In this document: positions 8,153 to 37,222 of the stretch, in pieces
Numbering within the stretch: position 1 is the stretch's first letter
Layout of the letters: each line of letters opens with the position of its first letter
From: Saccoglossus kowalevskii
Lineage: Eukaryota; Hemichordata; Enteropneusta; Harrimaniidae
DNA: 37,222 nucleotides
Direction of reading: 5' to 3'
Assembly (NCBI RefSeq): GCF_000003605.2
Contig: NW_003108586.1
Coordinates: forward strand, 304,242 to 341,463
Position numbers and translations under genes: made by a program
Notes under the pieces: model-generated
Told to the model about the DNA's origin: nothing
What the model saw: the letters and a program-made list of their open reading frames with translations, nothing else
The model's database searches: none

Positions 8153-8245
8153 TTATAGCTTAGGAGCATGTTTCTGGAACAGCTGTCCTGCTTTCATCAG
8201 CAACCCGACATTACCAGATACTTTTAGCTTTCCTTGAAAGAATGC
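8153..8245 (-). CDS. HSD17B4: HSD17B4(-) last exon with PTS1 PKL
   Basis: It has 93 bases: 30 codons plus TAA. It begins [18 protein letters not shown] and ends HAPKL. The final tripeptide PKL fits the peroxisomal import consensus (small or Pro, basic, Leu). Human MFE-2 ends AKL. Confidence 0.95.
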   Translation of the reverse strand, partial: AFFQGKLKVSGNVGLLMKAGQLFQKHAPKL

Positions 8246-17200: not shown

Positions 17201-20200
17201 ATTTTAAATCCAAAATGGTCACCGGTCAGCCATATTTGATTTAATTGTCATAATGTTTATGTTTGAACAAATTTGGTCATAGCTTGTCTGAGAAATGGCT
17301 TTGAGTGCATGGACAGACTTCATCTGAAATGGGTAATAAACAGAATTCAAGCCTAATACACTTTCTTTCATATTTATGCTATCACTTAAACAGAAACAAT
17401 TGTGTGTACAACTTCCTAATAACAATTTGAATTATACATTTATATTTGAAAATGTTTATTTTCAATTACCTCCAAGTGCATATAGAATAATATTGTCAGG
17501 TCCATAAGTAAAGTTGGGTGACTTCTGTGTATGTCCAATGGCTTGACTCTTAAAGACAAAACAAAAACACAATACACAGAGTTCAGTTATTGAATATTTT
17601 CAATGTGCTACAAACAAAATTAAAATTTAATTTGGATTTGATTTTTTTCATCAAAAGAAACTCTTTGAGTGACACCACTTTCCTGCCAACATTTTGAGGC
17701 AACATTTAGAGCAATTCATAATTTGTTATAATTCCTTAGTAATTTTGAACCAAATAGACAAATCTTAATCAAAATTTTGAAAAAAAATATGCCAAAATTC
17801 TATTAAATGTGACAAATTTTGACCTTGGTGCTCTAAGGGTTAACGTCAAAAGGTTAAAATGTAATTTGTCTTTGGAATTCTAGAAACATATAACATATGT
17901 CATGATAATTAATTTTGCAACACAAACATGTACCCAACAAGAACCACTATATCTTCAAAATTCTTTGCGATTTAATACATATTTGGCACTTACAACATTG
18001 ACAGCTGATGTATTGTTGGGTTTTATGGATCTTTCATTGTTTTCATCCACCGATAGAGCTTGCATTGCTAAGCCAGTACTCTCTGAAACAAAAACAAAAT
18101 AGTAATGTAAATTCTTTTGTCTCTAATCGTGTTGTTGGTAATCAAACCGTTCACACCTGGTCCAAGGAAATCAGTAAGTCAGACAGATTACGATACCGTC
18201 AGAACATTCATTAAAATCGTCAAATTTACCTAGTTTTAAAAGGGAAAAAATGGTGTGTACCAACATGCTGAAGTCGCTAAACAAATCTTGTCAAAATGGC
18301 GTCAGTCATGTTAACTTGGCCGATCGAAAAACCTGTGATATTTCTGATTCTTGGGGGGGTTCATAACAATGCATGTCAACTATACAACAACTAATGACAT
18401 TATTCGATACACCAGTATATAACAATGCTTAAATTTTTGCAAATAAATAGATTTTTGTAGCACTGAATCGCGCACATTGTCCTTTTAACATTTTAAAACA
18501 TCACCATTTGCATTTACAATCAAAAAGAGCATCGATAAAAATCGCCCAATTTAACATTAATAAAATGCAGGTGTGACAAATAACAAATCAGCTCACCAAT
18601 TTTTAATGATGTTTCTATCGTAAAATGTCAAAATCAAAGACAAATATTGGTTTTCACGCTGAGAAGAAGGGTAAATAAAATAGAGTTTATTTCAATTACT
18701 CCAAAAGTCAAACACGAAACATTTCTGGGTAAAGGTATGAAAATTTGTTGCGAAAATGTGTCGCTGATGGTAAAATAGATAAATTAAAAAACTACTCGCC
18801 GGCTAAAATATACCCTTATATGTGGAAAAGCTTGAATTCTGGAATAAACAACTAAGTTGTAAAAAAACAAATAGCACTGACGATGTCAAAAATAGTGACC
18901 GACTGTGCACGGATCACATGACAATGTGCCGCGCATACCCACAACATGCCTTTGTCAGGGAAGGAGGCCAATTCACACCGTTGCCAGACCGGGGAGAGAG
19001 GGACTGTGGGTCAGCAGATCTTCAAAGAGACTTCTGAATTTTTCATTTCTGTATAATTATAAGTATTGATGCACAGAGTACTTTGAGTGTATTTACATAA
19101 AGGAAGTAGTTTCCATGGTCACAACTGAGATTCATATCAAACACAATATGATGCTCTGACTGTAATAATTTCAGGGCAAGTTTCAGTAGTTTAACTATGT
19201 TCTAGTAAAGATTCAAGTTCAAATATAAATGGACATTTTGTTGTTGCAAAGATATGCTGATATGATTTGATAACTGGGCAGCATGTTGTACAAGATGACC
19301 TATTAGAACACACCAAACACAATATTTATTAAAGATAATAAATGACTTCCCTGTGAAGACTGACAGGGTCTTTAAAAGACAATAAACCGTTTAATACCTT
19401 GGATTGTAGTTGGAATGTCAGCATCTGTGAAGTCAGTGATATTGTTCCAACTGTCTCGAACTGAAAATTGACAAAAATGTTATTTGTAATATTTTTAAAT
19501 TTCTTTTTATTTTGATTAACTTGTTAAAGATGGATGGCGACAAAAAAAAAATTCCGGTAAAACTCACCCTGCTCTGGGGTTGCTGCTAAGTTCTTCTTTT
19601 TATAAATTGCACCTTTGCTTCGTTGGAGTCGTACTTTAGAAAGGATAAAAATACTATTCTGTCATGATTTTAAAATCACTAAGCATTTCCAGCAAATTAG
19701 TATTTTCTCAATAAATACATTTTGAGACTGCATGTATAATCACAGATTCTATCTTCTAGTCAATCAATCAATCAATCTTTATTAACAATTAACTCAATCC
19801 CAAGAGAGTGAGAAATGGTTAGAAATAAAAAAATCAGAAAAAAAAGAACATTGAGAGATCATCAAACAGAAACACAACTGAAATAAAAAAAAAAAATTTT
19901 AAAGGACGTTTTCTGTAGCAACTATTTAAAGTGTGTTAGTCGTCTCGCTGCATCATGTTCGACATGGGTTCCATAGCCACATATACAAGGTGTGTAAAAT
20001 ACATTGTTCGACATGAATTTTTAACATACACCGCACGATGATCAGTGTGGCCTGCTGATGCCAATATGACATTGCGCACAAACATTTGCTGTTACACCAC
20101 TAGTTGTGCTAATTCACGGGTGCGTCGTTGATGCAAAAATCATACATTGATATATTAGTTATCCTGAAAAACGTCTCACTATAGTTAGGAAGTTTGTAAT

Positions 20201-23200
20201 AATTTGGTGAAAACGCAGGAAAACTAGAGTCAAAATATCATATCACCTATCCAGCAATCACCAAGTTCACTCAACTTGAATTTGGGGATTCCATTTTGAC
20301 TTATGATTCCTACAAAATCAGTCAGTGGGCAAACTAGTGATGACCACTAGCCTTTAATAATAAATTTCTAATTTTTTTAAATGAAATATAATTTTTTTTA
20401 TGTTTTGTTATTAGTATTTGAATATTTGATGGAAATGACATCAATTTTTTCTGAATACCGCAAACTCCATAGTCAATCTCCATCGTGACAACAATGACAG
20501 TGTTACAAAGTTAGAATGATACTGTAAAATACTTTATTTAAGCTGGAATTAATTTTTGCTAAAAAAACAATTTGTTTTTTTCGCATGCAGTTTATTTTCA
20601 CTAATGAGTTATCGAGTTGAATGTAAAATATAGAAATTTATTTTAACTGAATCACCCCTTCAGAGAAAATAGCAAAAAATAAATTTCAATCGAAAGTAAA
20701 GTAATTTACAGTAACTCCTCACCCTGTGCCGCCCATCCAGCACCACATTCAAATATTGTATGGTTTTCATCACAGCTTTCATGACACATAAACACTACTA
20801 ATGGAGCGATGTACTCTGGCTTCAATGCATCAATCATATCTGAAAATTAAATTAAAATATAATTTATTATTTATACTACAGGTACATGTATGTTTAATCT
20901 ATAATGTATGTGCCAAATTTGAACAAAAGCTGACAAAGCATGCATAAGATACCACGTTTTCAAAAAAAACAAAATGGCTGCAAGTCGGCCACTTTAATTC
21001 AATGGTGAAATGAATCCTCATAGATATGTATCCTAACATGTATAATGTATGTACAATATTTGAACAAAAACTGACAAAAGATGCATAAGATACCATATTT
21101 GAAAACAAAACAAAATGGCTGCCAGTCAGCCATCTTGGATTGAATCAGTAAACCCATGCATGTGTATATGTCCCAGATAAAGTACTAGGCCCATACAAAG
21201 AATGAACCGATTTGGCCCACAGGGCTCTGAAATATGACTTCGGACGGACGGATGGGCGGACAAAGACTTCATTCAAACATGGACTAATTATCCAATTCAC
21301 CAGATATAAGAGAATGTTAAACCAAGATAGAAACACACATTATTTAGTTTGATCATTATATAAAGCATATGGGACACTTCTAATTTATGAAAAATATGAT
21401 ATAAGTATTCAAAATAGGAGTCATATTCAGGCGAAAACAAAAACTTCTGTTACAATTGCATCAACGGAAAAGATGTTATGATAATGCAAATATGAACAGC
21501 GCTTGAACCTAACATTACACATAGATGATGATTTGAACACCAAATGCTTTATAATAATTGAGCAATGCCAAGGGCACTCACTAAATAGCAAGGCTACATC
21601 TCCTGACTGTAATGGTTGCACCTGAATTATCTTCCCACCTCTTGAATGCAAGGTAATTTGTGAGTTATAAAAATGTCGTCATCATAAGAATAATTCAACA
21701 CTATTGAGTGCCGTCATTTCTTTCTTTACATATTTTTCAATAATTTCTTCCTTAATTTTGAACAAAATGGACATAATTTTCCATTTGCTACAGATTTTGA
21801 TCAAAATTTCTGAAAAATACGGAAAAAATTATATTTATCTTGTTGAAAATGGATAAAAGTTGAGTTTGGCACTTAATAAGTAATGATACTGTAAATACAA
21901 TTAGTTTTAATTTTATATTTTCGTTTTAATCCATTAAATTAAATCCATGAGAAACATGTAAAATTACAAAATCCAGGAAGTTTAATGATATAAAAATATA
22001 GTGAAATCGAATACATTGAACCAGTTTAACAAAATGATTCATTTATATATTTATTGAGAAAAATTACAAAATGCATACAACTTACATTGAGGCATGACGG
22101 TTGCAGTCAACCTTGATCCGGCCATCGGCACAACGGTGTTGGTATGTATATTGTATTTTTCACCTTCTATTGCAAGAGTGTTGGCTAATCCAATAAGACC
22201 CAGCTTTGCTGGAAAATGAAAGTAAACCACTCATAAATGATTCCCTTTTTTTTATTATGAATTCAAAGTAAAGTATGCCCTCTATGATGAAATCAGTGCT
22301 GAAACTTTTAGGTTGTAGTTTATTAAAACGATTTTCAATTGAAATCAGTTGCTTTCAAGATCGTATTGTTGTGGAACTATTGTGCAACATATTAACTTAT
22401 ACATGTGAAATATGCAGGAAAAATGTTCTCCACATATCTTGAAAATTGCACTTAGTTACACCAAAATTGAATTTGATTGACATTTGATAGCGATTTACGA
22501 AATTCACAAATTTGAAGATGATCAGATAAAAATTGTAACCACAAAAAGAAGACAATTTTAAGTTAAATTTAATGAAAAATATACATAGGTACATGGAACA
22601 TGTATTATCTAACGTGGCAGAGAATCCAAACTGGTTAATATAAAATCAAAGTTTGAAAGAAATTGGTAGCAACTGTTTGAGTTATTGTAACAACAAGAAA
22701 AGTTTCATGACAGAATCAACAACGACGACAACAATAACAATGAGGAAGACCAACATTTTCCCTCATACAATGTATATCTTGCTTTTCATCTTTCACATTT
22801 CATAATGATACTGACAAGGTATTAAAGAAATAAAATAAACCTTTCACCGATAACAATCCTACCTGCGCTGTAATTGGCCTGACCAAAGTTACCATACAAA
22901 CCAGCCCCAGAGGAAGTCATAATAATTCTACCATATTTTTGTTTCTTCATGTGTGGCCAAGCTGCTCTCGTGACCTGAAATGACCCCCGCAGATGGACCC
23001 TATGGATCAAATCTACACAAAGATAGAAATGGAATTAGGTTATGATTGCAATAGCTAAATATTATATAAAGTGATTTCCTATTGGTTGGAACACTGTGAT
23101 GTTATTACATTTTGGCCAACCAGCATGGGCGTTACAAACAAAACATGGAAGGTACTTGCTCAACATTAGGTTATGCTCACTATCATAACCATGATATTTA

Positions 23201-26200
23201 TGACTGCTGACAGACATATGATTGCAATAGCTAAATATTATATAAAGTGATTTCCTATTGGTTGGAACACTGTGATGTTATTACATTTTGGCCAACCAGC
23301 ATGGGCCTTACATTTTCATTTAAACAAGCATCACGAACAATGCCATTATTTGTTTGTGAAGGGGTGGCTCTTGTCAAGTAGTCACTGCAGACATGCACAA
23401 AACCTAAGCATGTGTTTCCTACTATAGCAAGCGGAAAGTTTACTTATAAAATTTGGGAATTTTCGCTCTCGCAGTCAGTCAGATTTGTCAGTTATGCAAT
23501 TATAGCATGCGATGGAAATAGAATCCCATCACTTATGCAAACGCTTGCACAGCACAAAATGTTTTTCGACGTTTCGGCCTATAATCTACATTATTACTAA
23601 ATCTATATTATAATAAGGTTATCACGATAATGCCATAAAGTAAGCTCTCAGGCAATAGAGTCGCATTAACGATCGTTACACGTTGGTCAATATGATTTCT
23701 GTACTGTCTTCGCCCATACTTGGCGACATTCTCGTATTAACCTCATAATATTCAAAATAATTAAAATTTCTTAGACATTTATAACAATGTTACTCACCCC
23801 AATCAAGGTCACTTGTTCTTGCAAATGAACGGTCTCTGAGAATACCGGCATTATTGACAACCACGTCTATAAGAAATTATTACAAATTTATTTGGTCATT
23901 ACAATACATATGAAAAACATGCATGTAACAAAAGAAATCATGTCTGTGCATTATCCCAGAGCAAACATATGTACATAGTTTTATTGAAATTTGATTGGTT
24001 CTTGATCTAAGTGGAACCAACACACATCTAGACAGCAACACCTCATAGATATTGATGTCACTTAATGACCTTCCATATTCTTGGATTTTCTACTTTTTTA
24101 TCTTGTTTCTTTGTGCATTGTATTCATCATCATGCATTCCAATGGATAAATATAAAATAAACATATGCATAAAAAGCTTAGACAGGTTAACTGCATAGGC
24201 TCTCAACAAAGATAGGGTTATTATTAGAATGCAAAGGTTCCCATTATTTTCTAGTCACACACAAGTAAAAAATACAACATACCAATTCTTCCAAAGTTAT
24301 CCAAAGCAGTCTTCACAACTTTCTCACCATCTTCAACAGAATCTGTTAAAACAACAAAATTTGACCAAGTTATAGAATGCTATCTCTTCAAATTAAAATT
24401 AAAAACCACGATAGATTTCAACTGAATCACACATACCATAGTTTGCCACAGCTTTGCCTCCCTTTGATCTGATTTCATTTACAACCACATCAGCAGCACG
24501 ACTACTCTTCCCTTCACCTTTGATATCGCCTCCTAGATCATTCACTGTACGTAACAGCAAATGTAAAAAAAGTTAAATTTTCATGTAAATTTATTATCAA
24601 AATAGGAGTTATATGCATGACCCTGAAAGGTCATACATCCTGGTATTTTATGGGGTTAATAAATAAATGGTTCTGAACTTGAGTGACAACTGCCTACATT
24701 TCTTTGAGAAGGGGTTATTGAGAATTTCTCTTTGATAGTGATTTTGTACCTCCAGAAAGTACCAGGATGTGTGACCTTTTGACCTTTTTTGTGCACTCAT
24801 TTTTTGTCTGTTTATTTTTTAAAACAGTGCTTTTATTTTTATTTTGTTACAGTATTTGATTTTTTTTTCTTTGTTTTATTCTGAAATTCTGACAAAGAAC
24901 CCAGATGTGAGCTGATGTACTCATTCACCAGAAATCTGAATATGTTTTTTGTGGCACATTTGAAAGACATTCTAGAAAAATTTATTTTTTGAAAATAAAA
25001 AAAAATGCAGGCAAGACCACATTCAGGCAGCTCTCCTTTGTCAACCAATTATAGCATACCTTACTTACAGTGGTCTGAAAAAAAGTTCTGATTGGTGACT
25101 GATCCTACAAGACATCTGAATTTTAACCAACTTGGCCTTTAACATTTTCGAACCTAGGTATGAAGTCATTAGATTTTACAAATTCAACCATATCAATTAA
25201 AAAAATGAGGTTAAATATTTTCTGGCAATCAGAAAGTGAAATACATGCAAGAATCCCTCTGTGTCTGTGTGGTATACAAATTATGGTGAATATGGAAGCA
25301 TGTAAAACACTACAAAATCAAAGGTTGATATTGGAATAAACTTTTTTAAGCTAATCTTTTGAGTATTAAAATCTACTTTTTCAACCGTTCACAAATTTTA
25401 AATTCATAATTTCTAAAGAATTGTAGCCAATGGAAAATTATGTCAAAAAATTTTGCAGGCCAACAAAATTATGATGTTTAATATGTACCGTTACATGTCA
25501 GTGCCATTAGTGGTACTGATGGCAAATCTATCTTGTCAGAAGAGATATTTCCATATGAGCGATTAAAATGGATCTTGGCTCATGAGAATGGTGTTTATTA
25601 TTAGAAGAGATTACACAAAAATAAAAGTGCTTACCAACAACTGATGCTCCTCTTTCAGCAAACATCAGAGCATATTCTTTACCCAGTCCTGTATAAAATA
25701 GACAACAGATACAGGGGGGGGGGGGGGTTACAAAAAACGACAACTGTTGTAACTGTGGATAATGTAATGTACTTTTTTTCTCTTTATTTCTAATATAACA
25801 TTTCTTGTGTCGTTATATAGTGCCAATTTGTAACAGCAATTACCGAAATGTTGACACGCTATAAATCAACATTGTAAACTAAATTACTTGCAAGTAAAAA
25901 ACAATGGTTATGGGGTTATGTCCAGGTCTCCAGAGGGCACATCTATTGAAATCTAATTTTGTCAAGCGAACCTACAAGATGACAACTTACGGGAAGCCCT
26001 AGGTGAAAAATCAGAAGGCCTCTAATTGAGTATTTTATGCGTCATTTCCCCCAATACTGTGCATCGTGCATCATGTTTTTCTACAGTTCCCATCACATGA
26101 CCAATTTCAATGAAATGGCAACTACTCGACCCATAGTTTTCACATCATATTTTATGTGACTTTAGTCTTGTATAGGGTCACTCTGCCCATGCAAATGTGT

Positions 26201-27314
26201 CTAAAACAATATTTCGGTAAGATTCGGGCATCTTTGTGTGGGTCGTATATAAACAAAAACAAAAATTACACCTATTGTTGCTTTAATGGTCCATTTCTAT
26301 GATCAGAATAATCATAAAGAAGTAAATGTGAAGATCTCAGTTTATTGGCCTTTGTGATTTTGACTTTTTGGGACTTTGCCCAGACAGAGCAAAGGTTAAA
26401 TTCATCGATGGACGTTGACTTGTGGTAATCACATGGAGCTAATACTACTATAGTTCCATGGTAATCACGATCAGTGATACATTGTAAAATCGCAATTTAT
26501 TATGATTGTCAATTGTTTTAATTATGCAGTTATATATAGAGGGGCGGCAAGGGGGGGGGTAGCTGGTACAGTTTTACGGGAAATAAAAAGGGCTTTTTAC
26601 AATTTACAAGGAAAAAAAGACGTTTTTACAGTTTACAGTGATAAAAAATGGAACATTGAATGGTCCGAAGAGCTCTCCGACTCAAATTCTCCGTCATTTC
26701 TGCGCCATGTGTAGAGACACATGCGCATATTACCCTCGTAATGCTCTTCATTCGGTTAGAGGGCCTTTTACGTCTTGACATTCAATTTTGCAGTGAATTG
26801 TGTCATCTAGTCGTTTTACAGTTTCTAAAATGTAATTTCCCTGGATTATTCTTTACGATTTTTTTATTTGGATGTAAATTCTTGTACGTACCGAGAAAAA
26901 TGACACATTATTACAGCGTACGAAAAAAATATTTGATTGATTACGTTGTACGTCTAGCCTGTGATTACAGAATTACGGAATTTATTTTTTCAATTTACGT
27001 TGTACGAACAAAAAAATATTGCAATTACGTTGAACGAAAATAACCCTTGCCCCCCTCTATATACCAAATGCAAATGAAAGTAAATTCGATATGAATCGCT
27101 TACTAATGCACTGTGTGATTCAACGATCAGGCGACATAAAGTCCGATGACCCAGGCCCGTTCGAGTCCACGCCAACGGCAATCAAATCTGCCCAGCTGAT
27201 CGTAGAATAAACAAAGACGTATGTTTGCATGTTGTGTGTAAGTAATTAGTTATACAAACCATTGCCAGCTCCAGTGACGAGAACAACGCGATCATCGAAT
27301 CTGAGCTCCGACAT
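8153..27314 (-). CDS. HSD17B4: HSD17B4 / MFE-2 (peroxisomal multifunctional enzyme type 2), spliced gene
   Basis: Twenty visible exons encode 651 residues with consistent phases. The protein is the peroxisomal D-bifunctional enzyme, which hydrates 2-enoyl-CoA to (3R)-hydroxyacyl-CoA and oxidises that to 3-ketoacyl-CoA with NAD+. Residues 1 to ~290 are an SDR dehydrogenase: TGAGNGLG at 14-21, NAD-type Asp39, NNAG at 97-100, Ser150 and Tyr163-x3-Lys167. Residues ~319-531 are the MaoC-like hydratase 2 domain. Residues ~532-651 are an SCP2 lipid-binding domain, and the C-terminus PKL is a type 1 peroxisomal signal. Human MFE-2 has 736 residues; the ~80 missing here fall between 14194 and 11169, where the N gap lies, and would contain the hydratase catalytic residues. 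The start at 27314 gives the family's usual short N-terminus before the LRFD segment; the frame stays open upstream but without similarity. A divergent paralogue starts at 29186. Confidence 0.95.
8361..8491 (-). CDS. HSD17B4: HSD17B4(-) exon, SCP2 domain
   Basis: It has 131 bases and encodes [20 protein letters not shown], then [20 protein letters not shown] and NPQQ, matching the SCP2 core. The acceptor (TATTAG) was chosen because it joins the previous exon's split codon to give EYTVDLK. Confidence 0.93.
8555..8956. repeat. 59-bp tandem array, about seven copies
   Basis: The unit contains GTGGTCACTCAGTGGTCAA, then AGTCACTTAAGTGTCACTT and GATAATGACAAAAGATGCA. The array shifts by one base per 60-base line, giving a 59-bp period, and the copies are almost identical. 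It lies in the intron between the two SCP2 exons ending at 8491 and 9522. Each unit carries the palindrome CACTTAAGTG. Confidence 0.93.
8956..9370. repeat. 107-bp higher-order continuation of the 59-bp array
   Basis: AAAGGATGTCATTGGTCACTC recurs at 8956, 9063 and 9170, giving a 107-bp period built from two diverged half-units related to the 59-bp repeat (GGTCACTCARTGGTCAAT words). It then decays into single degenerate units up to about 9370. Confidence 0.8.
9522..9660 (-). CDS. HSD17B4: HSD17B4(-) exon, start of SCP2 domain
   Basis: It has 139 bases and encodes [35 protein letters not shown] and PVAEY, the first helix and strands of a sterol-carrier-protein-2 fold. The acceptor is TTTCAG and the donor A|GTAAGA. 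Confidence 0.93.
9873..10317. mobile_element. 445-bp MITE with ~55-bp terminal inverted repeats and 9-bp target duplication
   Basis: The left end TAGACTGGCAAAGTCGGGA and the reverse complement of the right end TAGTCTGGCAAAGTCAGGA match for about 55 bases, including a shared GTTTTACAAAAA and ATAATTAATTGT. The element is flanked by CTCATGCAT (9864-9872) and CTCGTGCAT (10318-10326), a 9-bp target duplication with one change. No transposase ORF. The 9-bp duplication suggests a Mutator-like family, which is an inference. It lies in an HSD17B4(-) intron. Confidence 0.85.
10370..10456 (-). CDS. HSD17B4: HSD17B4(-) exon, end of hydratase and linker to SCP2
   Basis: It has 87 bases and encodes [20 protein letters not shown], the end of the hydratase fold, then an Ala/Ser/Thr-rich linker to the SCP2 domain. 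The frame stays open past the donor into a MITE, so intron retention would add an unrelated tail. Confidence 0.93.
10546..10662. repeat. 60-bp tandem duplication
   Basis: Two units start TTTGCACTACTGAGCAT at 10546 and 10606 and end GGGAGATAAC, with a few substitutions. They lie in an HSD17B4(-) intron. Confidence 0.85.
11083..11169 (-). CDS. HSD17B4: HSD17B4(-) hydratase exon after the missing segment
   Basis: It has 87 bases (29 codons, phase 0 at both ends) and encodes [20 protein letters not shown] followed by GNRIHMQCK, matching the family right after its catalytic block. The phase fits exon 15 only if a multiple of three bases is missing between them. Confidence 0.95.
11400..11772. repeat. 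Degenerate TTGCACA-rich repeat abutting the assembly gap
   Basis: Words such as CCTGTTGCACACT, CTTGCACATCTCT and TATAGTTCTGTGAARCTT recur irregularly. The array runs straight into the N gap, which suggests that the gap is a repeat that could not be assembled. Confidence 0.55.
11773..12086. other. Assembly gap (314 N)
   Basis: Unknown bases. The gap lies between HSD17B4(-) exon 15 and the exon at 11083-11169, where about 80 family residues are unaccounted for. Confidence 1.
12087..12555. other. Intronic stretch, no exon found
   Basis: I searched both strands for the missing hydratase block (LSGDWNPLHIDP-like and HGLCTFGF-like coding) and found none. Nothing else is recognised. Confidence 0.5.
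12560..13808. repeat. 21-bp minisatellite, about 59 copies
   Basis: The unit is ATGTTCTGTAACCATCAATTT with variants. The 5' part (about units 1-28) varies mainly at CATC/CGTC and TCTGTAACC/TCTATAACC. The 3' part (about units 29-53) instead carries ATAAATTT and ATCAATGT variants. One 20-base unit near 13700 shifts the frame. Because 21 is divisible by three, two plus frames and one minus frame stay open for about 380-420 codons. These are repeat artefacts, not genes. It lies in an HSD17B4(-) intron. Confidence 0.97.
13809..14193. other. Intronic stretch, no exon found
   Basis: No part of the missing hydratase block and no repeat is recognisable here. Confidence 0.5.
14194..14300 (-). CDS. HSD17B4: HSD17B4(-) exon 15, hydratase domain
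   Basis: It has 107 bases and encodes [20 protein letters not shown], then [15 protein letters not shown], a family signature. It ends at phase 0. The next family segment (with the Asp and His of the hydratase active site) is not found downstream in readable sequence. Confidence 0.95.
14340..14475. repeat. 33-bp tandem repeat, about four copies
   Basis: Unit CATAGTCCCTGTTATATATT followed by TGACAAAACATGA; CATG recurs at 14354, 14387, 14420 and 14453. It lies within the 247-base intron between exons 14 and 15 and fills about half of it. Confidence 0.9.
14548..14671 (-). CDS. HSD17B4: HSD17B4(-) exon 14, hydratase domain
   Basis: It has 124 bases and encodes [14 protein letters not shown] and [15 protein letters not shown], a strongly conserved hydratase 2 block. 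The acceptor is TTTAG and the donor A|GTATGT. Confidence 0.95.
14672..16170. other. Intron 13 (-): GC-rich block and a diverged ~97-bp duplication
   Basis: About 14700-15160 is clearly richer in GC than its surroundings and holds overlapping ORFs of 75-170 codons on both strands, none recognisable; it could be a mobile-element fragment. At 15550-15745 two imperfect units start AACTAATCAAACC (about 97 bp apart) and share GGTTAATTAGTATGCAA-like words. Confidence 0.4.
16171..16325 (-). CDS. HSD17B4: HSD17B4(-) exon 13, hydratase domain
   Basis: It has 155 bases and encodes [30 protein letters not shown] and [11 protein letters not shown], matching hydratase 2 order in the family. The exon ends at phase 0 (AAG|GTACAA). 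Confidence 0.94.
17045..17235. repeat. Dyad repeats of the ATGGCTG...GCCAT family (two copies)
   Basis: AATGGCTGGCAGTCGGCCATT at 17045-17065 and AAAATGGTCACCGGTCAGCC at about 17213-17232 are self-complementary cores of a dispersed family also found at 20971, 21112, 34604, 34721 and 34844. They lie in intron 12 of HSD17B4(-). Confidence 0.6.
17470..17548 (-). CDS. HSD17B4: HSD17B4(-) exon 12, start of hydratase domain
   Basis: It has 79 bases. It encodes [20 protein letters not shown] and then ILYALG, the start of the enoyl-CoA hydratase 2 domain. Of two nearby AG acceptors, only the one giving SQAIG keeps the frame. Confidence 0.9.
17994..18082 (-). CDS. HSD17B4: HSD17B4(-) exon 11, inter-domain linker
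   Basis: It has 89 bases. It begins ESTG, as in the family, and continues as a polar linker between dehydrogenase and hydratase domains, a region that is variable in MFE-2 proteins. The donor is GTAAGT. Phase and family position support it more than residue identity does. Confidence 0.8.
18083..19397. other. Intron 10 (-): unassigned, with a GC-richer patch
   Basis: About 18890-19035 is GC-richer and falls in an unrecognised 71-codon plus-strand ORF (18822-19037). A diverged relative of the ATGGC...GCCAT dyad family may occur near 18295. No exon is supported. Confidence 0.35.
19398..19460 (-). CDS. HSD17B4: HSD17B4(-) exon 10
   Basis: It has 63 bases and encodes [20 protein letters not shown], equivalent to the family's NWKKICDF region at the end of the dehydrogenase unit. 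The intron to exon 9 is 107 bases. Confidence 0.88.
19568..19633 (-). CDS. HSD17B4: HSD17B4(-) exon 9
   Basis: It has 66 bases and encodes [20 protein letters not shown], matching the family's basic segment after GAGW. The acceptor is CTAAAG and the donor G|GTGAGT. Confidence 0.88.
19757..19810 (-). mobile_element. Retroelement 3'-tail-like fragment
   Basis: On the minus strand it reads AATAAAGATTGATTGATTGA, the same tail as at 2999-3020. The upstream sequence to about 20200 may be the rest of the element but is not recognisable. It lies in intron 8 of HSD17B4(-). Confidence 0.35.
20723..20839 (-). CDS. HSD17B4: HSD17B4(-) exon 8
   Basis: It has 117 bases and encodes [20 protein letters not shown] and GAGW near its end, the dimerisation and C-terminal part of the SDR domain. 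The donor is G|GTGAGG. Confidence 0.94.
20897..21137. repeat. Two tandem ~141-bp units of the dyad repeat family
   Basis: Two units share TATAATGTATGT, TTTGAACAAAA, CTGACAAA and GCATAAGATACCA, and both end in AAAATGGCTGC(A/C)AGTC. The second core (21112-21137) is nearly self-complementary. A GGACGGACGGATGGGCGGAC word follows at 21240. They lie in intron 7 of HSD17B4(-). Confidence 0.75.
22086..22208 (-). CDS. HSD17B4: HSD17B4(-) exon 7
   Basis: It has 123 bases and begins with the AKLGL segment carrying catalytic Lys167, then [15 protein letters not shown] and a PMAGSR segment. The donor is T|GTAAGT. This exon is the most diverged between the paralogues (21 of 40 residues identical). Confidence 0.94.
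22209..22862. other. Intron 6 (-), nothing recognised
   Basis: AT-rich intron with no repeat array, ORF or motif that I can support. Confidence 0.5.
22863..23012 (-). CDS. HSD17B4: HSD17B4(-) exon 6
   Basis: It has 150 bases and holds the catalytic core: [20 protein letters not shown], then MTSS with catalytic Ser150, then QANYSA with catalytic Tyr163. The acceptor is GTGTAG and the donor G|GTAGGA. It matches the plus copy at 41 of 49 complete codons. Confidence 0.96.
23041..23306. repeat. 90-bp direct duplication in intron 5 (-)
   Basis: Bases 23041-23130 and 23217-23306 are essentially identical, starting TATGATTGCAATAGC and ending CCAACCAGCATGGGC, separated by 86 bases. The first copy begins 28 bases upstream of exon 6. 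Confidence 0.9.
23798..23866 (-). CDS. HSD17B4: HSD17B4(-) exon 5
   Basis: It has 69 bases and encodes [19 protein letters not shown] and the flanking residues, including the SDR NNAG motif. The donor is GTGAGT. Its upstream intron (416 bases) lacks the repeated splice-site array seen before plus-copy exon 5. Confidence 0.95.
24283..24342 (-). CDS. HSD17B4: HSD17B4(-) exon 4
   Basis: It has 60 bases and encodes the [20 protein letters not shown] segment. The acceptor is TTAACAG and the donor G|GTATGT. The intron to exon 3 is only 94 bases. Confidence 0.95.
24437..24544 (-). CDS. HSD17B4: HSD17B4(-) exon 3
   Basis: It has 108 bases. It begins VNDLGGD, containing Asp39, which selects NAD+, and ends KGGKAVANY. 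The donor is G|GTATGT. It matches plus-copy exon 3 at 28 of 36 residues. Confidence 0.95.
24545..25634. other. Intron 2 (-), no repeat array
   Basis: AT-rich. It holds a direct repeat of TGACCT spaced by two bases (24772-24785, a DR2 arrangement). Nothing else is supported. Confidence 0.4.
25635..25688 (-). CDS. HSD17B4: HSD17B4(-) exon 2
   Basis: It has 54 bases and encodes [18 protein letters not shown], which completes the TGxxxGxG loop. The acceptor is TATACAG and the donor G|GTAAGC. A run of fourteen C on this strand (25714-25727) sits 26-39 bases upstream of the acceptor. Same length and phase as plus-copy exon 2. Confidence 0.93.
26533..27063. mobile_element. 531-bp inverted-repeat element, TATATAGAG ends
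   Basis: The left end TATATAGAGGGGCGGCAAGG and the reverse complement of the right end TATATAGAGGGGGGCAAGGG agree apart from one or two bases; TATATA at the edges may be target duplication. The interior repeats words related to TTACGTTGTACGA (near 26883, 26916, 26941, 26996, 27026) and TTTACAGTTTACAG. No transposase. It lies in intron 1 of HSD17B4(-). Confidence 0.75.
27260..27314 (-). CDS. HSD17B4: HSD17B4(-) exon 1
   Basis: It encodes [18 protein letters not shown] and the first base of the next codon: the first beta strand and the start of the glycine-rich nucleotide loop. The donor reads AATG|GTTTGT, weaker than the GTAAGG of the plus copy. Confidence 0.9.
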
Positions 27315-29185: not shown

Positions 29186-29249
29186 ATGGCTGCTCCCGCT
29201 GCTCTGCGGTTCGACGGACGAGTTGCATTGGTTACTGGTGCAGGAAATG
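29186..29249 (+). CDS. HSD17B4: HSD17B4(+) exon 1
   Basis: It encodes [20 protein letters not shown] and N, plus one base. It is three codons longer at the N-terminus than the minus copy. Donor G|GTAAGG. Confidence 0.92.
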
Positions 29250-32200
29250 GTAAGGTTCGCATGTATATTAATACAAAAATAATCAGCTGACAATACGTGA
29301 ATGTCGACCTAGTGCGTATTTACACGAATGTAAACAAAACGTTAAAAGTACGATGATTCCCGGGGATGTTTGGCGATCCGCTTCTCCCGAGTATGCGCTA
29401 GAATATATGTGGTATCTGAGGTCCCGAATATCGTAGAGATCTTAGAAATCTCGGAAAGCGCAGTGATTATATGTCCCACAACGTAAACTTAAGATGTGAC
29501 GTCATATCGACCACACGTTTTCCGACGGCCATGTTCAATGTTACTCGGCTGATTACAATGTTGCATCTTTATGATGGCATATTGTTTAACGTCTTTAGAA
29601 ATGTCGTACTAGTATTTCACAAGAGAGGTAAAGGCGATGTCAGAAGAAAAAACTCCCAAAAAAACTTCGGGATTTTTGAGCGAACCTCGGACCTGACCTT
29701 TGACCTGGCTGATTCATTGCCGAGACGAGTATACCAGTAGTTCAATGATTCAAATTTCGAGGTCCCATAGTTCATGGAGGTAAAAAGAAAAACTCTTTTT
29801 ACCTCCATACATAGTTATATACTGCAGAACTTTGTTCATTAATATTATTTACAATTTATAACTTGTAGGTCTTGGTCGCCAATATGCTCTTATGTTTGCG
29901 AGTCGTGGCGCTGCAGTTGTTGGTAAGAAGGACAGATAATATTCTCATTTCCTTTTTAATTTTAGCAAAACATGGAACGGGGTGGGGGTTATAAGGCAAA
30001 ATGTTACAGCTGTTATATCTGCAGTATACTGCAAGAACCATTCAATAAAATCAGAACACATATAATATTTATATATCATACAGTTGAAAGACCTGATTAG
30101 TTTTTGTTACAAATCTGTGCATGTTAAATAGCTAAATATGCATATTGATTACATGTTTTGGATTTCATTGCTATCTTCAGTTTTGAAGCTTGATTTCGGA
30201 GATTAAAGAAAACGTGTGAATTCTCCAAATTACTTTAATATCAGGACTTAGTCCAGGGTAAGCATTATCCAACAGGTTGAAAAATAATAACTGTTCATAT
30301 TCCTTTTTAAATTCCTTTTTACTTTACCACACAGTTAATGACTTGGGTGGGGATCTTAATGGTGGAGGGAAAAGTACCAAAGCTGCTGATATAGTGGTGG
30401 ATGAAATAAGGTCTAAAGGAGGAAATGCTGTTGCAAATTATGGTAAGTAGTTAGGACATATACTAGTAGTTGCCTCTTTTCTTTTTTAATGTAGTTTTGT
30501 TTTCGGCAACAGTACCACATACTGCATGTATCTGATGTTTGCCCTCATTATTTATTGTTCTTGCAAGAGTCTGTGACACATTCAACCAGGTTTGCAGGTT
30601 ACTCCATTTTTTGGTGTACGTTGTGCCCTTTGTGGGATTTGAACTTGAGACCTACCAATCATGGGTCCAGTGCTGATGATATTCTGATGACCATGCAGAC
30701 ATATTTTTGAATTCTAACCATTTCTGAGTCAATATTGTTGGTGTGAATGCATGATTGTACTTTTTTGTATACCAGTCAGTACAGAATAAAAAAAAGCTTT
30801 GATAAATATTGGTCACAAAAATAAGTATATTTTAACAGGACTGTTTGGTGAAAAAATAATTGGCAATATTTATTAATAGCTTCAACTGAAATTTTGAATA
30901 TATTATGCATATAAATTATATTATATTTGTATTTAATTTTGACTGACTGAATAAATTAAAAATTATTTATCCAAAGCTGACGATTAGAATATGTAATCAT
31001 AATTAGTATAGTCAGAATGCATTAAAATCTGTTACAGCGACCATATTCCATTTTGTGACTATGTGATAGGGCTGTGTGGCTATTTTCCTATCATAATTTA
31101 TGGCATTATGGTAATTTAATGTGCTATCCTGGCGTTAACCAGGCCCAGTTGAACATGAGCACCTGCAGACATTAACAAAGATTCTCCCAAAGTCACCATC
31201 GTTAGTTAATAAATCCCATAGCCTTCCTATTGAGTCTGGCACATTATGGTGTAGGGGTCAGCCCTATTTAGTGTTCAACACAAGATAGAATCTGAATTTG
31301 GATCTACTGATTATTATTCAGATGCTATACTATTTTTTTATCCCATGATGATGAAAAAAATGGTGTGGTTATCAAGCTTTTTTTTCTAATGTTTTTTTTT
31401 TAATTTCATCTATTACAATATTTTGACAGAAACCATAAAAAAATGTTACCATACCTTTTTAACTGATATGTGTGCTGAAATAATTTAGTTTTTTGCCTTA
31501 TTTAACATTTTCTCTCAATAACTATAAAATTATCCTTTCCCAAATAAATTACATGCCACAATGTAATTTTTCCAGAGTTACTCTCATTAACGCTTCAAAC
31601 ATTATTTCCTGTCAATATTTTGTACATTATGCATCATGCAATAATTTATTTGTTAATTTTTGAAGTATATGACAAACCTACAATGATTAAAAAAAAACAG
31701 ATATGGTTTCTTGTTCTATAGTTGCTATTATCATTATCAATTTTATTGATTATTATAAATTGACTGTTCTGTAATAAAAATACTATACTGTCTTGATTTA
31801 TTAACTATTTATTTATTTATAGATTCTGTTGAAAATGGAGCCAGATTGGTACAGACTGCACTGGAAAATTTTGGACGAATTGGTGAGAATTAAATAATAA
31901 TTATTTTAAGTAACTGCAAATGTGTAGTACTAGTAATCAAAATTTCCTGCAGCGAATGATTTTTTGATTTGAAGTTTTCAATTCTCTTTTCTTGCTATGT
32001 TCAAACAATCCAATACTTTTGCAGAAGAATCAACAGCAAACCACTATAATGATAATAACAATCTTTATAATAATCATAAAGTAATTACAATTATTCTTTG
32101 GTTTGTAAATAATTAAGAATTTTTTAATTAATATGGTGTGAATAACTGAGTAGTTATGTTAGTGCTTGTTTTTAGCTCCGCTGTAGACTTTGTCGAGCGG

Positions 32201-35200
32201 AGCTTATCATATGAGTGATTGTCCATCGTCGTTCATCGTCGTCCGTCGTCCGTGTCAATGTGTTACTTTTTCGACTTGTTCTTGAAAACTACAAGCCTGA
32301 ATGCTTTGATACTTGGTGTATATGTACCTTGGGTAGACCTCTCTCAGATTTGTTCATTTTGTAATGATATCTTTAATTCTCTAATTTTGGTGAATATTTT
32401 TGTCATTTTTGGTAAAAAGTGATATTTTCGACTTCTTGTTGAAAACCGCAAGTCCAATTGCTTTGATATTACATATATAGGTACTACATGTGGACATCTC
32501 TCAGGTTTGTTCATTTCATAATGATATCTTCAATTCTCTAATTTTGTTGAATATTTTTGTAATTTTTGGTGAGAAGTGATATTTTCGACTTCTTGTTAAA
32601 AACCGCAAGTCCAATTGCTTTGATATTACATATATAGGTACTACATGTGGACCTCTCTCAGATTTGTTCATTTTGTATTGATATCTTCAATTTTCTAATT
32701 TTGGTGAATATTTCTGTCATTTTTGGTAAAAGTGATATTTTCGACTTCTTGTTAAAAACCTCAAGTCCAATTGCTTTGATATTACATATATAGGTACTAC
32801 ATGTAGACCTCTCTCAGATTTGTTCATTTCATGATGATATATTTAATTCTCTAATTTTGATGAATATTTTTGTAATTTTTGGTAAAAATTGATATTTTCG
32901 ACTTCTTGTTGAAAACCGCAAGTCCAATTGCTTTGATAATACATATATAGGTACTACATGTGGACCTCTCTCAGATTTTTTCATTTTCTAATGATATCTT
33001 CTGTTCTTTAATTGCCATGTGCACTGCTAACAGCGGAGCTATCTCAGCTGACAGGCTGCTTGTTTAGTATAAAGCGTTGTTTATGTATTTGATAACAAGT
33101 TTTTAAACAGGGATGGCTCTGTCATGTTTAAAGTCATTTTGAATTTGTCCATGTAGTTCTATGTTGAGAAATTATTCTACCTTCTGTTGAATTATTCATA
33201 AAGTTCCTGTCTTTCATTTGAATATAATCGACAGTGTATTATTTAATTTATTTCATCTTCTGTTGTTTTACATATTTTACAAATTCTTTCATCATCTGGT
33301 GTTTCAGACGTGTATGTCTCTAAACTTCAATTTCTAGACTATAGCAACTTAGTTTGGCCATTGTTCTAATATCCTGTCTTGATATTTTTGGGGGTGCACA
33401 TTTACTTGTATTATATATTATTTTTCAAAATATACTGTGTTATTATGAGAATACTTTATTGTATTCATGGTGGCAGTATGGTGATCATATAATGACTGAT
33501 GTTAAGCGGTGGTCGGTTGATGCAATCCAGTACTGACTGAGTGCATACTTCGCGGTATTCTTGTGATAACCTCATTATTATACATCTTAATAATTTGATG
33601 AAAGGTACAAGCCTTTCATGCTGTGTGAATATTTACATTTTGTGATTCTATTTTCAATGAAGGGATACATCACTGCGATTTCACAATTCTGTTTTCTGTA
33701 TAGATATCATTGTCAACAATGTCAGGAAATGTCACTGTCATTCCATAATTCTGTTTTCTCTATAGATATTATTGTGAACAATACCAAGATACATCACTGT
33801 GCTTTCACAATTCTGTTTTCTGGATAGATAACATTGTTAACATTACTGGAATATATCACTGCAATTTCACAATTCTGTTTTCTCCATAAATATCATTGTC
33901 AACTTTGCCAAGATATATCTCTGCGATTTCACTATTCTGTTTCTTCTATAGATATCATTGTCAACATTGCTGGAATATATCACTGTGAATTTACAATTTT
34001 GTTTGCTGTATAGATATTGTTGTGAACAATACCAAGATATATCACTGTGTTTCTGTATAGATAACATTGTTAACATTTCTGGGATATATCACTGCAATTT
34101 CACAGTTCTGTTTTCTCCATAAATATCATTGTCAACTTTGCCAAGATATATCTCTGCGATTTCACTATTCTGTTTCCTCTATAGATATCATTGTCAACAA
34201 TGCCGGGATATTGAGAGATAATTTATTTGCAAGAACAAGTGATACAGACTGGGGTAGGTAAAGCTGAATAAAATTTACTACCACGTTTACTCTATTATTA
34301 GTTAATACACTAACATAAATAGTTGAGCCGTTTTCTATTAGGCTCGGAATAAAATTCATATTTATTGTCCCTGCATGTATTAGTTAAAATATGGCGTGTC
34401 AGACTTTAGCTTGAACTGCTGAAAAAAAAAAAGGAAAAATTTAATGAAAACTCAAAATGAAAAAACAAATGTAGATACAGATGAAGGTTTTTTATAACCA
34501 TGTATTTGATATGTGATAAAGCGCTTTCCAAGCCTTGACTGCCATCACTGTTTGGGGATCCTAAAATCAATCTTGGGATACATACGTACTATCATTCGTT
34601 TCATGATGGCTGAATGGCAGCCATTTTAATGTTAAAATCCATCCAAATCAAGCATTTCTTTAAGTCTGGAACCAGATCTCGTCGTGTATATGCAAACTTG
34701 ATACAAACATAAAATTAATTTCAAAATGGCCAACTGGCAGATATTTTGTTTTAATGGATGTTGCATGACATGAGTTGACTAATCATGTTAAAATTTCTGC
34801 ATCTTGTCACAAATATGCACATGTATTTTTTCACCATCAGATTCAAGATGGCCGAATGGCAGCCATTCTTATGTAAAAATGTATCAAAATCAAGCATTTC
34901 TGCCATTCTGGACCCAGATCTTGGTTATATATGGATGCAGCTACTGTCTGTCTTGATACTTGGATTGAACGTTTATATAACAGGACCATAATGTCTCTGA
35001 CATACATTGACTGATCGCACTGATCAATTTCTACAACTACATTATACATTATCATTTGTTTTTTTGTTCTGATTCAAAATGTCTGCTGTTTTGTTTACTG
35101 TTGAATCATTTGGGACTCGCGTCATATCTTGAAATGTTTATAAATTACGATAAAGTTCAGCAAATGTGATAAATACTGCTTTCTTCAGAAGAAATTCATG

Positions 35201-37212
35201 AATGTGATTTAATTTGGTAATTTAAATCAATCTTTTCACCACCAGCTCCCTTTTTTTCATCACAAATTCACAAAATAATCCTGTTTACAGTCTGCACTGT
35301 CCTTCAGAAGATTGGAACAAAAACCCTAATTTTTTGTTGGCTCTAAAATTGGTCTTCATTTCCAGAAATATTGAAGAATAAAGAAAAAAGTGCAAAACAA
35401 TTGAAAAAAAAGTCTGGTGGTGAAAAGGTTAAAGTCATATGTACATACATATATTGAGTATACGGTATTCAGGTGTGAGGAATTTACAATGGAATTTACC
35501 ATTTTTCTTACATTATTAGATCTTGTACATCGAGTTCACAGTCGTGGTGCATTCCAGGTCACTAGGGCAGCTTGGCCACATATGAAAAAACAAAAGTATG
35601 GAAGAATTATTATGACATCATCAAGTGCTGGTATCTATGGCAACATTGGTCAAGCTAGTTATTCTACAGGTAATATTGACAGCATCCAAGTCCTGGCCCA
35701 TTGTCGGTTACTATTGTCTGTACCAGTACTGGTTTTTAATGTCTGCACCCATACTAGTGCCTACTGTCTGGACCCGTACTGGTCCCTGTTGTCTGGACCC
35801 GTACTGGTCCCTGTTGTCTGGACCCGTACTGGTCCCTGTTGTCTGGACCCGTACTGGTCCCTGTTGTCTGGACCCGTACTGGTCCCTGTTGTCTGGACCC
35901 GTACTGGTCCCTGTTGTCTGGACCTGTACAGGTCCCTGTTGTCTGGATCCGTACTGGTCCCTGTTCTCTGAACTAGTACTGGTTCCTATTATCTGAACTA
36001 GTACTGGCTCCCCTTGTCTAGACCAGTACTGATTCCTATTTTCTGGACCAGTACCGTTTCCTATTGCCTGGACCAGTGTACCAGATTCTGTTTTTTATCA
36101 ATACTAGTAGTGGTTCTTATTGTCTGGACCAGTACTAGATCCTATTGTCTGTACCAGTATTATTTTCTTCTTTCTGTACCAGTACAGTTTCTCTTAGTCT
36201 GAACTAGTACCGGTATCTTTTGTCTGGACCAGTACTGGTTTCTATTGTCTGAACTAGTACCAGTTTCTTTTGTCTGAACTAGTACTGGTATCTTTTGTCT
36301 GGATGAGTACTGTTTCCTATTGTCTAGACCAGTAATGTTGTCTGGACCAGTACTGGTTCCTATTGTCTGAACTAGTACTGGTTTCTTTTGTCTGGACCAG
36401 TACTGGTTCCTATTGTCTGAACTAGTACTGGTTTCTTTTATCTGGACCAGTACAGGTTCATATTGTCTGAACCAGTACTATTGTCTGGACCAAAACTGGT
36501 TCATATTGTCTGAACCAGTACTATTGTCTGGACCAGAATTGGTTCTTATTGTTTGGCCTAGTACTGGTTCCTTTTGTCTTGAGCAGTACTGGTTCTTTTT
36601 GTCTAGACCAGGACTTGTTACTATTGTCTAGACCAGGACTTGTTACTATTGTCTGGGTCACTACTGGTTCCTATTTTCTGGACCAGTTCTGTTTCCTATT
36701 GTCTGAACCAGTTCTGTTTCCTAATGTCTGAACTAGTACTGATTCCTATTGTCTGAACCAGTTCTGTTTCCTATTGTCTGAACTAGTATTACTGTTCATA
36801 AATTGATTTTCAAATTTTCAATTGATCAAATTATAAACTCCACATTCACATGTTTCCTCTTATTTTACAGCTAAGCTTGGGCTGGTTGGACTCAGTTATA
36901 CATTATCCGATGAAGGAATCAAATACAATATCAATTGCAATGCTATAGCGCCATTTGCCGCATCCAGAATGATGACACCAGTAGTACCAGATGGTATGTA
37001 TTAAACAACCTGTAAATGCCACTTTCATAACATACATAGGCTTGTTAATCGACTTTCTGTCAAGTCCTGATCCATTTTTGTTTTGTTTTGACCAGAAGTT
37101 GTAGCACAACTGAAGCCTGATTATGTGGCGCCAGTGGTTTTATATTTATGTCATGAGAGTTGTGATGAGACTGGATCACTCTTTGAAGTGGGTGCTGGAT
37201 GGATAGCTAAAT
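29186..37212 (+). CDS. HSD17B4: HSD17B4 / MFE-2 paralogue, 5' part (exons 1-8), runs off the window
   Basis: Eight exons encode 248 residues of an MFE-2-type SDR dehydrogenase. The ATG sits in a good context (ATTACCATGG). Motifs: TGAGNGLG at 17-24, Asp42 for NAD+, NNAG in exon 5, Ser153 and Tyr166-x3-Lys170, so it should be catalytically competent. Exons 2-8 have exactly the same lengths and phases as the minus copy (54, 108, 60, 69, 150, 123, 117), showing descent by inverted duplication. Introns are of different sizes and contain several repeats. Whether it has hydratase and SCP2 domains and a PTS1 cannot be seen here. Silent sites differ widely between copies, so the duplication is old. 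Confidence 0.93.
29694..29706 (-). promoter_or_regulatory. Perfect DR1 nuclear-receptor element in HSD17B4(+) intron 1
   Basis: On the minus strand it reads AGGTCA-A-AGGTCA, the exact DR1 consensus bound by PPAR/RXR, HNF4 and COUP-TF type receptors. It lies 445 bases downstream of exon 1. Function is inferred from the sequence only. Confidence 0.5.
29869..29922 (+). CDS. HSD17B4: HSD17B4(+) exon 2
   Basis: It has 54 bases and encodes [18 protein letters not shown]. Acceptor TTGTAG, donor G|GTAAGA. Confidence 0.95.
30335..30442 (+). CDS. HSD17B4: HSD17B4(+) exon 3
   Basis: It has 108 bases, begins [19 protein letters not shown] and ends AVANY. Acceptor CACACAG, donor G|GTAAGT. Confidence 0.95.
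30443..31822. other. HSD17B4(+) intron 3, nothing recognised
   Basis: AT-rich intron of 1,380 bases with homopolymer runs but no ORF, tandem array or inverted-repeat element that I can support. Confidence 0.5.
31823..31882 (+). CDS. HSD17B4: HSD17B4(+) exon 4
   Basis: It has 60 bases and encodes [19 protein letters not shown] with split codons at both ends. Acceptor TTATAG, donor G|GTGAGA. Confidence 0.95.
32172..33056. mobile_element. 885-bp element with 12-bp inverted repeats, 9-bp target duplication and internal 157-bp tandem repeats
   Basis: TAGCTCCGCTGT (32173-32184) is inverted as ACAGCGGAGCTA (33030-33041), and a third copy of AGCGGAGCT at 32196 makes a hairpin with the left end. TGCTTGTTT flanks both sides (32163-32171 and 33057-33065). 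The interior has about 4.7 units of 157 bp: TTTTCGACTT recurs near 32267, 32424, 32581, 32737 and 32894. No transposase ORF. It lies in intron 4 of HSD17B4(+). Confidence 0.8.
33660..34184 (+). repeat. Array of 62-bp units duplicating the 3' splice site and start of exon 5
   Basis: Eight units upstream of exon 5 each carry TTCACAATTCTGTTTTCT-like pyrimidine tract, a TATAG-type acceptor and an ATATCATTGTCAACAATGCC-like copy of the exon start. Junctions lie before 33704, 33766, 33828, 33890, 33952, 34014, 34061 and 34123; the real one is before 34185. Spacing is exactly 62 except one 47-bp unit. Units at 33890 and 34123 have AA instead of AG. Variants recur every four units, so it is a higher-order repeat. 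Confidence 0.92.
34185..34253 (+). CDS. HSD17B4: HSD17B4(+) exon 5
   Basis: It has 69 bases and encodes [19 protein letters not shown] and flanking residues. Its first ~27 bases are the source, or the last member, of the 62-bp array upstream. The start is fixed by the split codon from exon 4 and by identity of length with the minus copy. Donor G|GTAGGT. Confidence 0.95.
34604..34960. repeat. Three ~120-bp tandem units of the dyad repeat family
   Basis: Cores ATGGCTGAATGGCAGCCATT (34606), AATGGCCAACTGGCAG (34725) and GATGGCCGAATGGCAGCCATT (34848) are spaced 117-123 bases. Units one and three also share AATCAAGCATTTCT and CCAGATCT, giving an A-B-A order. They lie in intron 5 of HSD17B4(+). Confidence 0.75.
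35520..35669 (+). CDS. HSD17B4: HSD17B4(+) exon 6
   Basis: It has 150 bases, with [24 protein letters not shown] (Ser153) and ASYST (Tyr166). Acceptor ATTATTAG, donor G|GTAATA. Retention of the following intron keeps a frame open into the 25-bp array. Confidence 0.96.
35702..36790. repeat. 25-bp minisatellite with palindromic core
   Basis: Unit GTCTGGACCCGTACTGGTCC plus CTGTT. Eight nearly identical units start every 25 bases from 35766 to 35941; the remainder to 36790 is older and more varied (GTCTGAACTAGTACTGGTTTC types). Many units contain CCAGTACTGG or longer self-complementary cores. It fills most of intron 6 of HSD17B4(+) and stays open in several frames, which is not coding. Confidence 0.95.
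36871..36993 (+). CDS. HSD17B4: HSD17B4(+) exon 7
   Basis: It has 123 bases and encodes [20 protein letters not shown] (Lys170 first), then [13 protein letters not shown]. Acceptor TTTTACAG, donor G|GTATGT. Confidence 0.95.
37096..37212 (+). CDS. HSD17B4: HSD17B4(+) exon 8
   Basis: It has 117 bases and encodes [35 protein letters not shown] and IAK. Acceptor TTGACCAG, donor T|GTGAGT. It is the last visible exon; the window ends ten bases later. Confidence 0.95.
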
Positions 37213-37222
37213 GTGAGTCTTT

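Follow-up and report, generated by a model that had tools for sequence, protein, structure and literature searches.

A tandem array of exon 5 acceptor copies in an HSD17B4 intron is most probably a neutrally grown minisatellite of the mirage type

Why would the intron directly in front of an exon carry a row of copies of that exon's own start, and how could the real splice site still be chosen among them? This question is raised by a window of 37,222 nucleotides (the whole stretch of DNA that was analysed), in which intron 4 of a plus-strand HSD17B4 gene contains eight diverged copies of the start of exon 5, in an array that ends in the real exon. We consider it very likely that the array is a minisatellite of the kind known as a mirage, which grew neutrally and is passed over by exon definition.

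HSD17B4 is the peroxisomal multifunctional enzyme type 2, and the window holds a head-to-head pair of its genes, at about 8160-27314 on the minus strand and 29186-37222 on the plus strand. The plus copy, which was read within the window only and so to 37222, starts at 29186. Its exons 1-8 encode a dehydrogenase part of 248 residues, which is matched by the Pfam family adh_short and aligns without gaps to human HSD17B4 (1zbq; 387 bits, residues 6-248). The minus copy is open over 473 codons in exons 1-15 and carries dehydrogenase, hydratase N-terminal (PF22622) and SCP2 domains by Pfam. Since both matches to PF22622 in the window's own genome are exons of the minus copy, the plus copy may be without this hydratase domain. 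The two copies share 172 of 242 aligned residues and have equal lengths for exons 2-8 (54, 108, 60, 69, 150, 123 and 117 nt), whereas intron 4 differs, with 2302 nt in the plus copy against 416 nt in the minus one. In the plus copy, exon 4 (31823-31882) ends in phase 1 (ATT G/gtgag), in gapless alignment to 1zbq, and the real exon 5 (34185-34253) has 69 nt and the donor GGG/GTAGGT; its length is that of the homologous exon 5 of the minus copy (23798-23866, minus strand), which has no array in front. Because the protein is gapless against human HSD17B4 across exons 4 and 5, and because the lengths of exons 2-8 are common to both copies, exon 5 is old and the array before it a younger addition.

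Aligned on the acceptor from -35 to +27, the array consists of nine units, eight decoys (u1-u8) and the real site (u9), all on the plus strand. A full unit comprises a branch-like motif (TTCAC, whose A stands at -21), a pyrimidine tract, TAG and a copy of the first 27 coding bases of exon 5. This agrees with a preliminary description of the locus, including its view that the last member is the real exon. That description had also placed eight 62-bp units upstream of exon 5; the number of units stands, and the spacing holds for seven of the steps, the remaining one (34014 to 34061) being 47 bp through a loss of 15 bases. The first bases after the decoy acceptors are 33704 (u1, 33669-33730), 33766 (u2, 33731-33792), 33828 (u3, 33793-33854), 33890 (u4, 33855-33916), 33952 (u5, 33917-33978), 34014 (u6, 33979-34040), 34061 (u7, 34041-34087) and 34123 (u8, 34088-34149), and the real one is 34185 (u9, 34150-34211). 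Units are 71-98% identical to one another, that is, they differ by up to 29%, and u5 is the closest to the real unit (94%). The branch-like TTCAC is found in u1, u3, u4, u5, u8 and u9; it reads TTTAC in u6 and TCCAT in u2, and in the 47-bp u7 it was deleted with the lost 15 bases, together with part of the pyrimidine tract. Six of the eight decoys retain AG, while u4 and u8, the latter being the decoy nearest to the real site, have AA, as was first described. A single AG loss probably accounts for both, as u4 and u8 are 98% alike, and with AG absent neither should be usable. A candidate for a further unit before u1 (33600-33675) had a local score of 25, a value reached by 9 of 500 mononucleotide shuffles, and was not accepted.

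The periodicity of the array was clear by two measures. TRF reported a period of 62 at 33669-34053 and of 124 at 33664-34199, and the self-identity of 33664-34253 was 0.665 at lag 62 and 0.586 at lag 124. Over lags 20 to 199 the highest value among 500 dinucleotide shuffles was 0.393, so that none came up to 0.665, and the 62-bp repeat, on which the first account had staked itself by proposing a dot plot, is plainly there. The suggestion that variants recur every four units, with a 15-base loss, was borne out as well: units separated by four steps had a mean identity of 0.90, as against 0.77-0.81 for lags 1-3 and 5-7. When the units were treated as exchangeable, 108 of 20000 random orders attained the lag-4 value at any of the lags 1 to 5. 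The most similar long stretches are 33817-33978 (u4-u5) and 34050-34211 (u8-u9), with 95% identity over 162 nt. Together with the peak at lag 4, this indicates that the array probably last grew by a four-unit block that extended into the real acceptor, with the 15-base loss in u7. A four-unit order of this type is typical of block exchange. The units could alternatively have been multiplied by the assembly itself: the window contains a gap (with 314 N in total), and for amphioxus PMC3087553 reports an array that the draft genome had misassembled. However, stutter of identical reads would give neither units that differ by up to 29% nor a 15-base loss private to one of them, and we regard an artefact as highly improbable. 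The exact number of units in the assembly could be wrong.

We also compared the exon 5 acceptor with the other splice junctions of both genes, using 1500 bases on the intron side and 40 mononucleotide shuffles for each of 51 junctions (the set leaves out the minus last-exon acceptor and the plus exon-8 donor, and two minus donors are one base off). Only the plus exon-5 acceptor had clear copies nearby (score 104, z 39), the next best junctions having z 3.7, and three others stood barely above their 40 shuffles (24 v. 22, 27 v. 24 and 25 v. 24). The flank of the minus exon-5 acceptor gave z 0.3, bearing out the earlier statement that the minus copy has no such array. A query with the array against its own genome (572,110,611 bases in 4830 contigs) returned two matches, itself and minus exon 5, and no second haplotype of the array was found there, leaving a single copy (one allele). 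Rfam and tRNA scans of the window gave no matches. Tandem arrays, this one included, make up about 13.7% of the bases of the window, and an array close to an exon is thus unremarkable here; what is remarkable is an array that contains the boundary. Other arrays in the window are a 21-bp tandem array of 59 copies at 12566-13805, in a minus-copy intron by the gene model; a 59-bp array at 8555-9244, about 60 bp upstream of a minus-strand acceptor at 8491; a second array in plus intron 4, at 32336-33013, with a 157-bp unit and 4.3 copies by TRF; and a 25-bp based array at 35711-36788, which starts about 40 bp after the plus exon-6 donor. That donor has no clear copies in its flank (z 2.2).

Read in phase from exon 4, all eight decoys meet their first stop, TAG or TAA, at the next junction in silico, as the preliminary description had predicted for every decoy. 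The open length after the acceptor is 20 codons, or 15 in u6, and the stops fall where they do by arithmetic: with a unit length of 3n+2, an intron in phase 1 and a T preceding AG, that triplet comes into frame. Between these stops and the exon-5 donor there are 69-488 nt, more than the usual limit of 50-55 nt for nonsense-mediated decay. The open stretches could be taken to mean that the units are cassette exons or alternative exon-5 starts that add protein variants, but each of them runs into the stop at the next junction, and the best donor-like GT within the array reaches 2.4 bits, a value that just one of 23 true donors, the weakest, falls below (1.8-12.1 bits by leave-one-out; the exon-5 donor has 9.6 bits with itself in the training set). 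The NNAG motif is broken in 8 of 8 decoys, and change is even across codon positions, with 7, 8 and 7 steps at positions 1, 2 and 3 of the exon-like part (counted on three hand-chosen trees of 44 steps each, a test of low power with eight related units). The decoys look to be without coding constraint, and a protein-coding role for them is extremely improbable.

To compare the strength of the sites we used an acceptor matrix made from 25 acceptors of both genes, with the real exon-5 site left out. The real acceptor scored 9.90, and the decoys u1 to u8 scored 10.65, 7.99, 6.05, 1.19, 11.69, 12.68, 3.39 and 1.20, respectively; true acceptors ranged from -0.5 to 12.1 by leave-one-out, with a median of 6.06. 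The scores of u1, u5 or u6 were reached by 0.3-0.6% of 714 other intronic AGs, and at least three decoys would be credible acceptors on this small matrix. Because u1, u5 and u6 outscore the real acceptor, site strength alone would not be expected to pick it.

The preliminary description had raised the idea of a poison-splicing control, in which the decoys compete with the real acceptor, each decoy product stops early, and the balance between them determines how much this HSD17B4 copy yields. An early stop does follow from each of the eight alternative sites in silico, two of which are without AG, and the three strong decoys would be able competitors. On the other hand, the phasing of the stops is already given by unit length, intron phase and the T before AG, u4 and u8 are dead, u7 is without a branch-like site, and the minus copy does without any array. 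Nor are the splice elements retained beyond neutral expectation: one AG loss was observed against 1.42 expected, and the chance of keeping all junction stops without selection is 0.18, both at low power. Steps per site were 0.65 in the branch region, 0.62 in the tract, 0.50 in AG and 0.81 in the exon-like part; the tract may be under slight constraint, and weak constraint would lower change in the tract and AG too. Decoy strength showed no trend with distance (Spearman 0.24, p 0.57, n 8). Published amphioxus equivalents, moreover, appear to be spliced normally (PMC3087553). We think that a control of this type is very unlikely; regulatory use of the array is possible, and beyond the stops the sequence offers it no positive support.

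The array thus has to be set beside its closest known equivalents, the mirages. As PMC3087553 describes them, mirages are tandem duplications of an intron-exon boundary reported in lancelets, with splice signals in many, not all, of the repeats; those of Adh3 have units of 10-72 bp, and RT-PCR data for Adh3 and globin suggest undisturbed splicing. PMC3902484 adds mirages at PGBD5, imperfect ones of 60 and 108 bp, and also cites TnC. At the level of sequence, the present array matches every mirage feature that was compared: its units span the exon-intron boundary, the authentic boundary lies inside it (u9, with a protein collinear with HSD17B4), and many but not all units have a splice signal (AG in 6 of 8). 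It resembles the BflGb6 mirage in having units on the acceptor side, with the acceptor and the 5' part of the exon, and mirages generally in having the authentic boundary at the array end and block-wise turnover, and its unit length of 62 bp falls within the Adh3 range and is close to that of one PGBD5 array (60 bp). Unit identity is 71-98% here and 81-100% in BflGb6, and PGBD5 copies are imperfect. The differences are that another gene is affected and that a four-unit order is present here.

We hypothesize that the mirage-type array arose when a 62-bp segment, which took in the 3' splice site of intron 4 together with the opening 27 bases of exon 5, was duplicated in tandem, and that the array was enlarged by unequal exchange or slippage, latterly in four-unit blocks. 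This growth would have been neutral, because the decoys lie in the intron and would normally not be used; that published equivalents appear normally spliced (PMC3087553) also argues for neutrality. The real acceptor most likely wins through exon definition, since it is the only site near (69 nt) a good donor with 42 uncopied exon bases, whereas the two nearest decoys are crippled (AA in u8, the missing branch-like site in u7) and exons starting at the strong u6, u5 and u1 would have to be 240, 302 and 550 nt long. Occasional use of a decoy would end the reading frame at the following junction, a long way ahead of the exon-5 donor, making the product a target of nonsense-mediated decay. Masking of the decoys by local folding was considered and rejected, as the difference in AG unpaired (0.30 for the real site and 0.04-0.25 for decoys) is too small. 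The earlier proposal of neutral expansion tolerated by stop-coupled decay fits the counts of codon-position steps, AG losses and kept stops in its first half; decay is possible, but it is not needed, because splicing appears to be normal in published arrays of this type (PMC3087553). The array most likely spread by chance, and as gene regulation it is probably ordinary.

Related systems share parts of this picture. Amphioxus VCBP3 (PMC2632668) likewise has intronic partial exon copies with canonical splice sites beside the matching exon, whereas a short-period array is not described in the accessible part of that paper. Internal tandem repeats of human duplicated genes (PMC2812944) are also minisatellite expansions at exon-intron boundaries; in primate paralogues they are linked to new introns and to alternative transcripts, while here the intron was only lengthened. 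Similarly, intron gain by tandem duplication in Drosophila (PMC2891723) involves partial exon duplication with splice signals and stops in the copies, unlike the present locus in that no new intron position is created here. The titles and abstract openings of the open-access matches listed contained no array of such a kind at HSD17B4, and no mirage under that name outside lancelets was found among the literature matches listed. A minisatellite in IFI6 (6-16) with multiple splice donor sites was reportedly described by Turri et al. in 1995; a splice signal is multiplied in both cases, on the donor side in IFI6 and on the acceptor side here. A potato study is also said to describe intron gain by tandem duplication, and shares partial exon duplication with splice signals and stops in the copies, while no new intron position is present here.

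What is new at this locus is the gene, the four-unit order and the stop at every junction, the mirage kind itself being known; a host outside lancelets is perhaps also new. Amphioxus has a GC content of about 41%, with the window below it at 34.6%, and carries the GFP family PF01353, for which the window's own genome gave 0 matches; the control genomes likewise gave none. If the host is not a lancelet, the phenomenon would extend beyond that group. Either way, a metabolic gene joins the mirage loci, and the array offers a natural test of how the spliceosome chooses one acceptor among seven with AG, as three decoys have higher local acceptor scores than the real site and yet the gene presumably works. 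A more speculative thought, to which we give only a slim chance, is that the array, in an animal outside the lancelets, works as a bank of competing acceptors that can be tuned through its length, in which the number of strong units would set how much message is lost to decay and changes in length would be heritable, perhaps somatic, changes in gene dose.

Finally, we observed that u3, u5 and u7 end in CTGGAATA or CTGGGATA, where the real exon has CCGGGATA. As the end of u5 still codes for AGI, an earlier, synonymous form of exon 5 may have been kept in the decoys.
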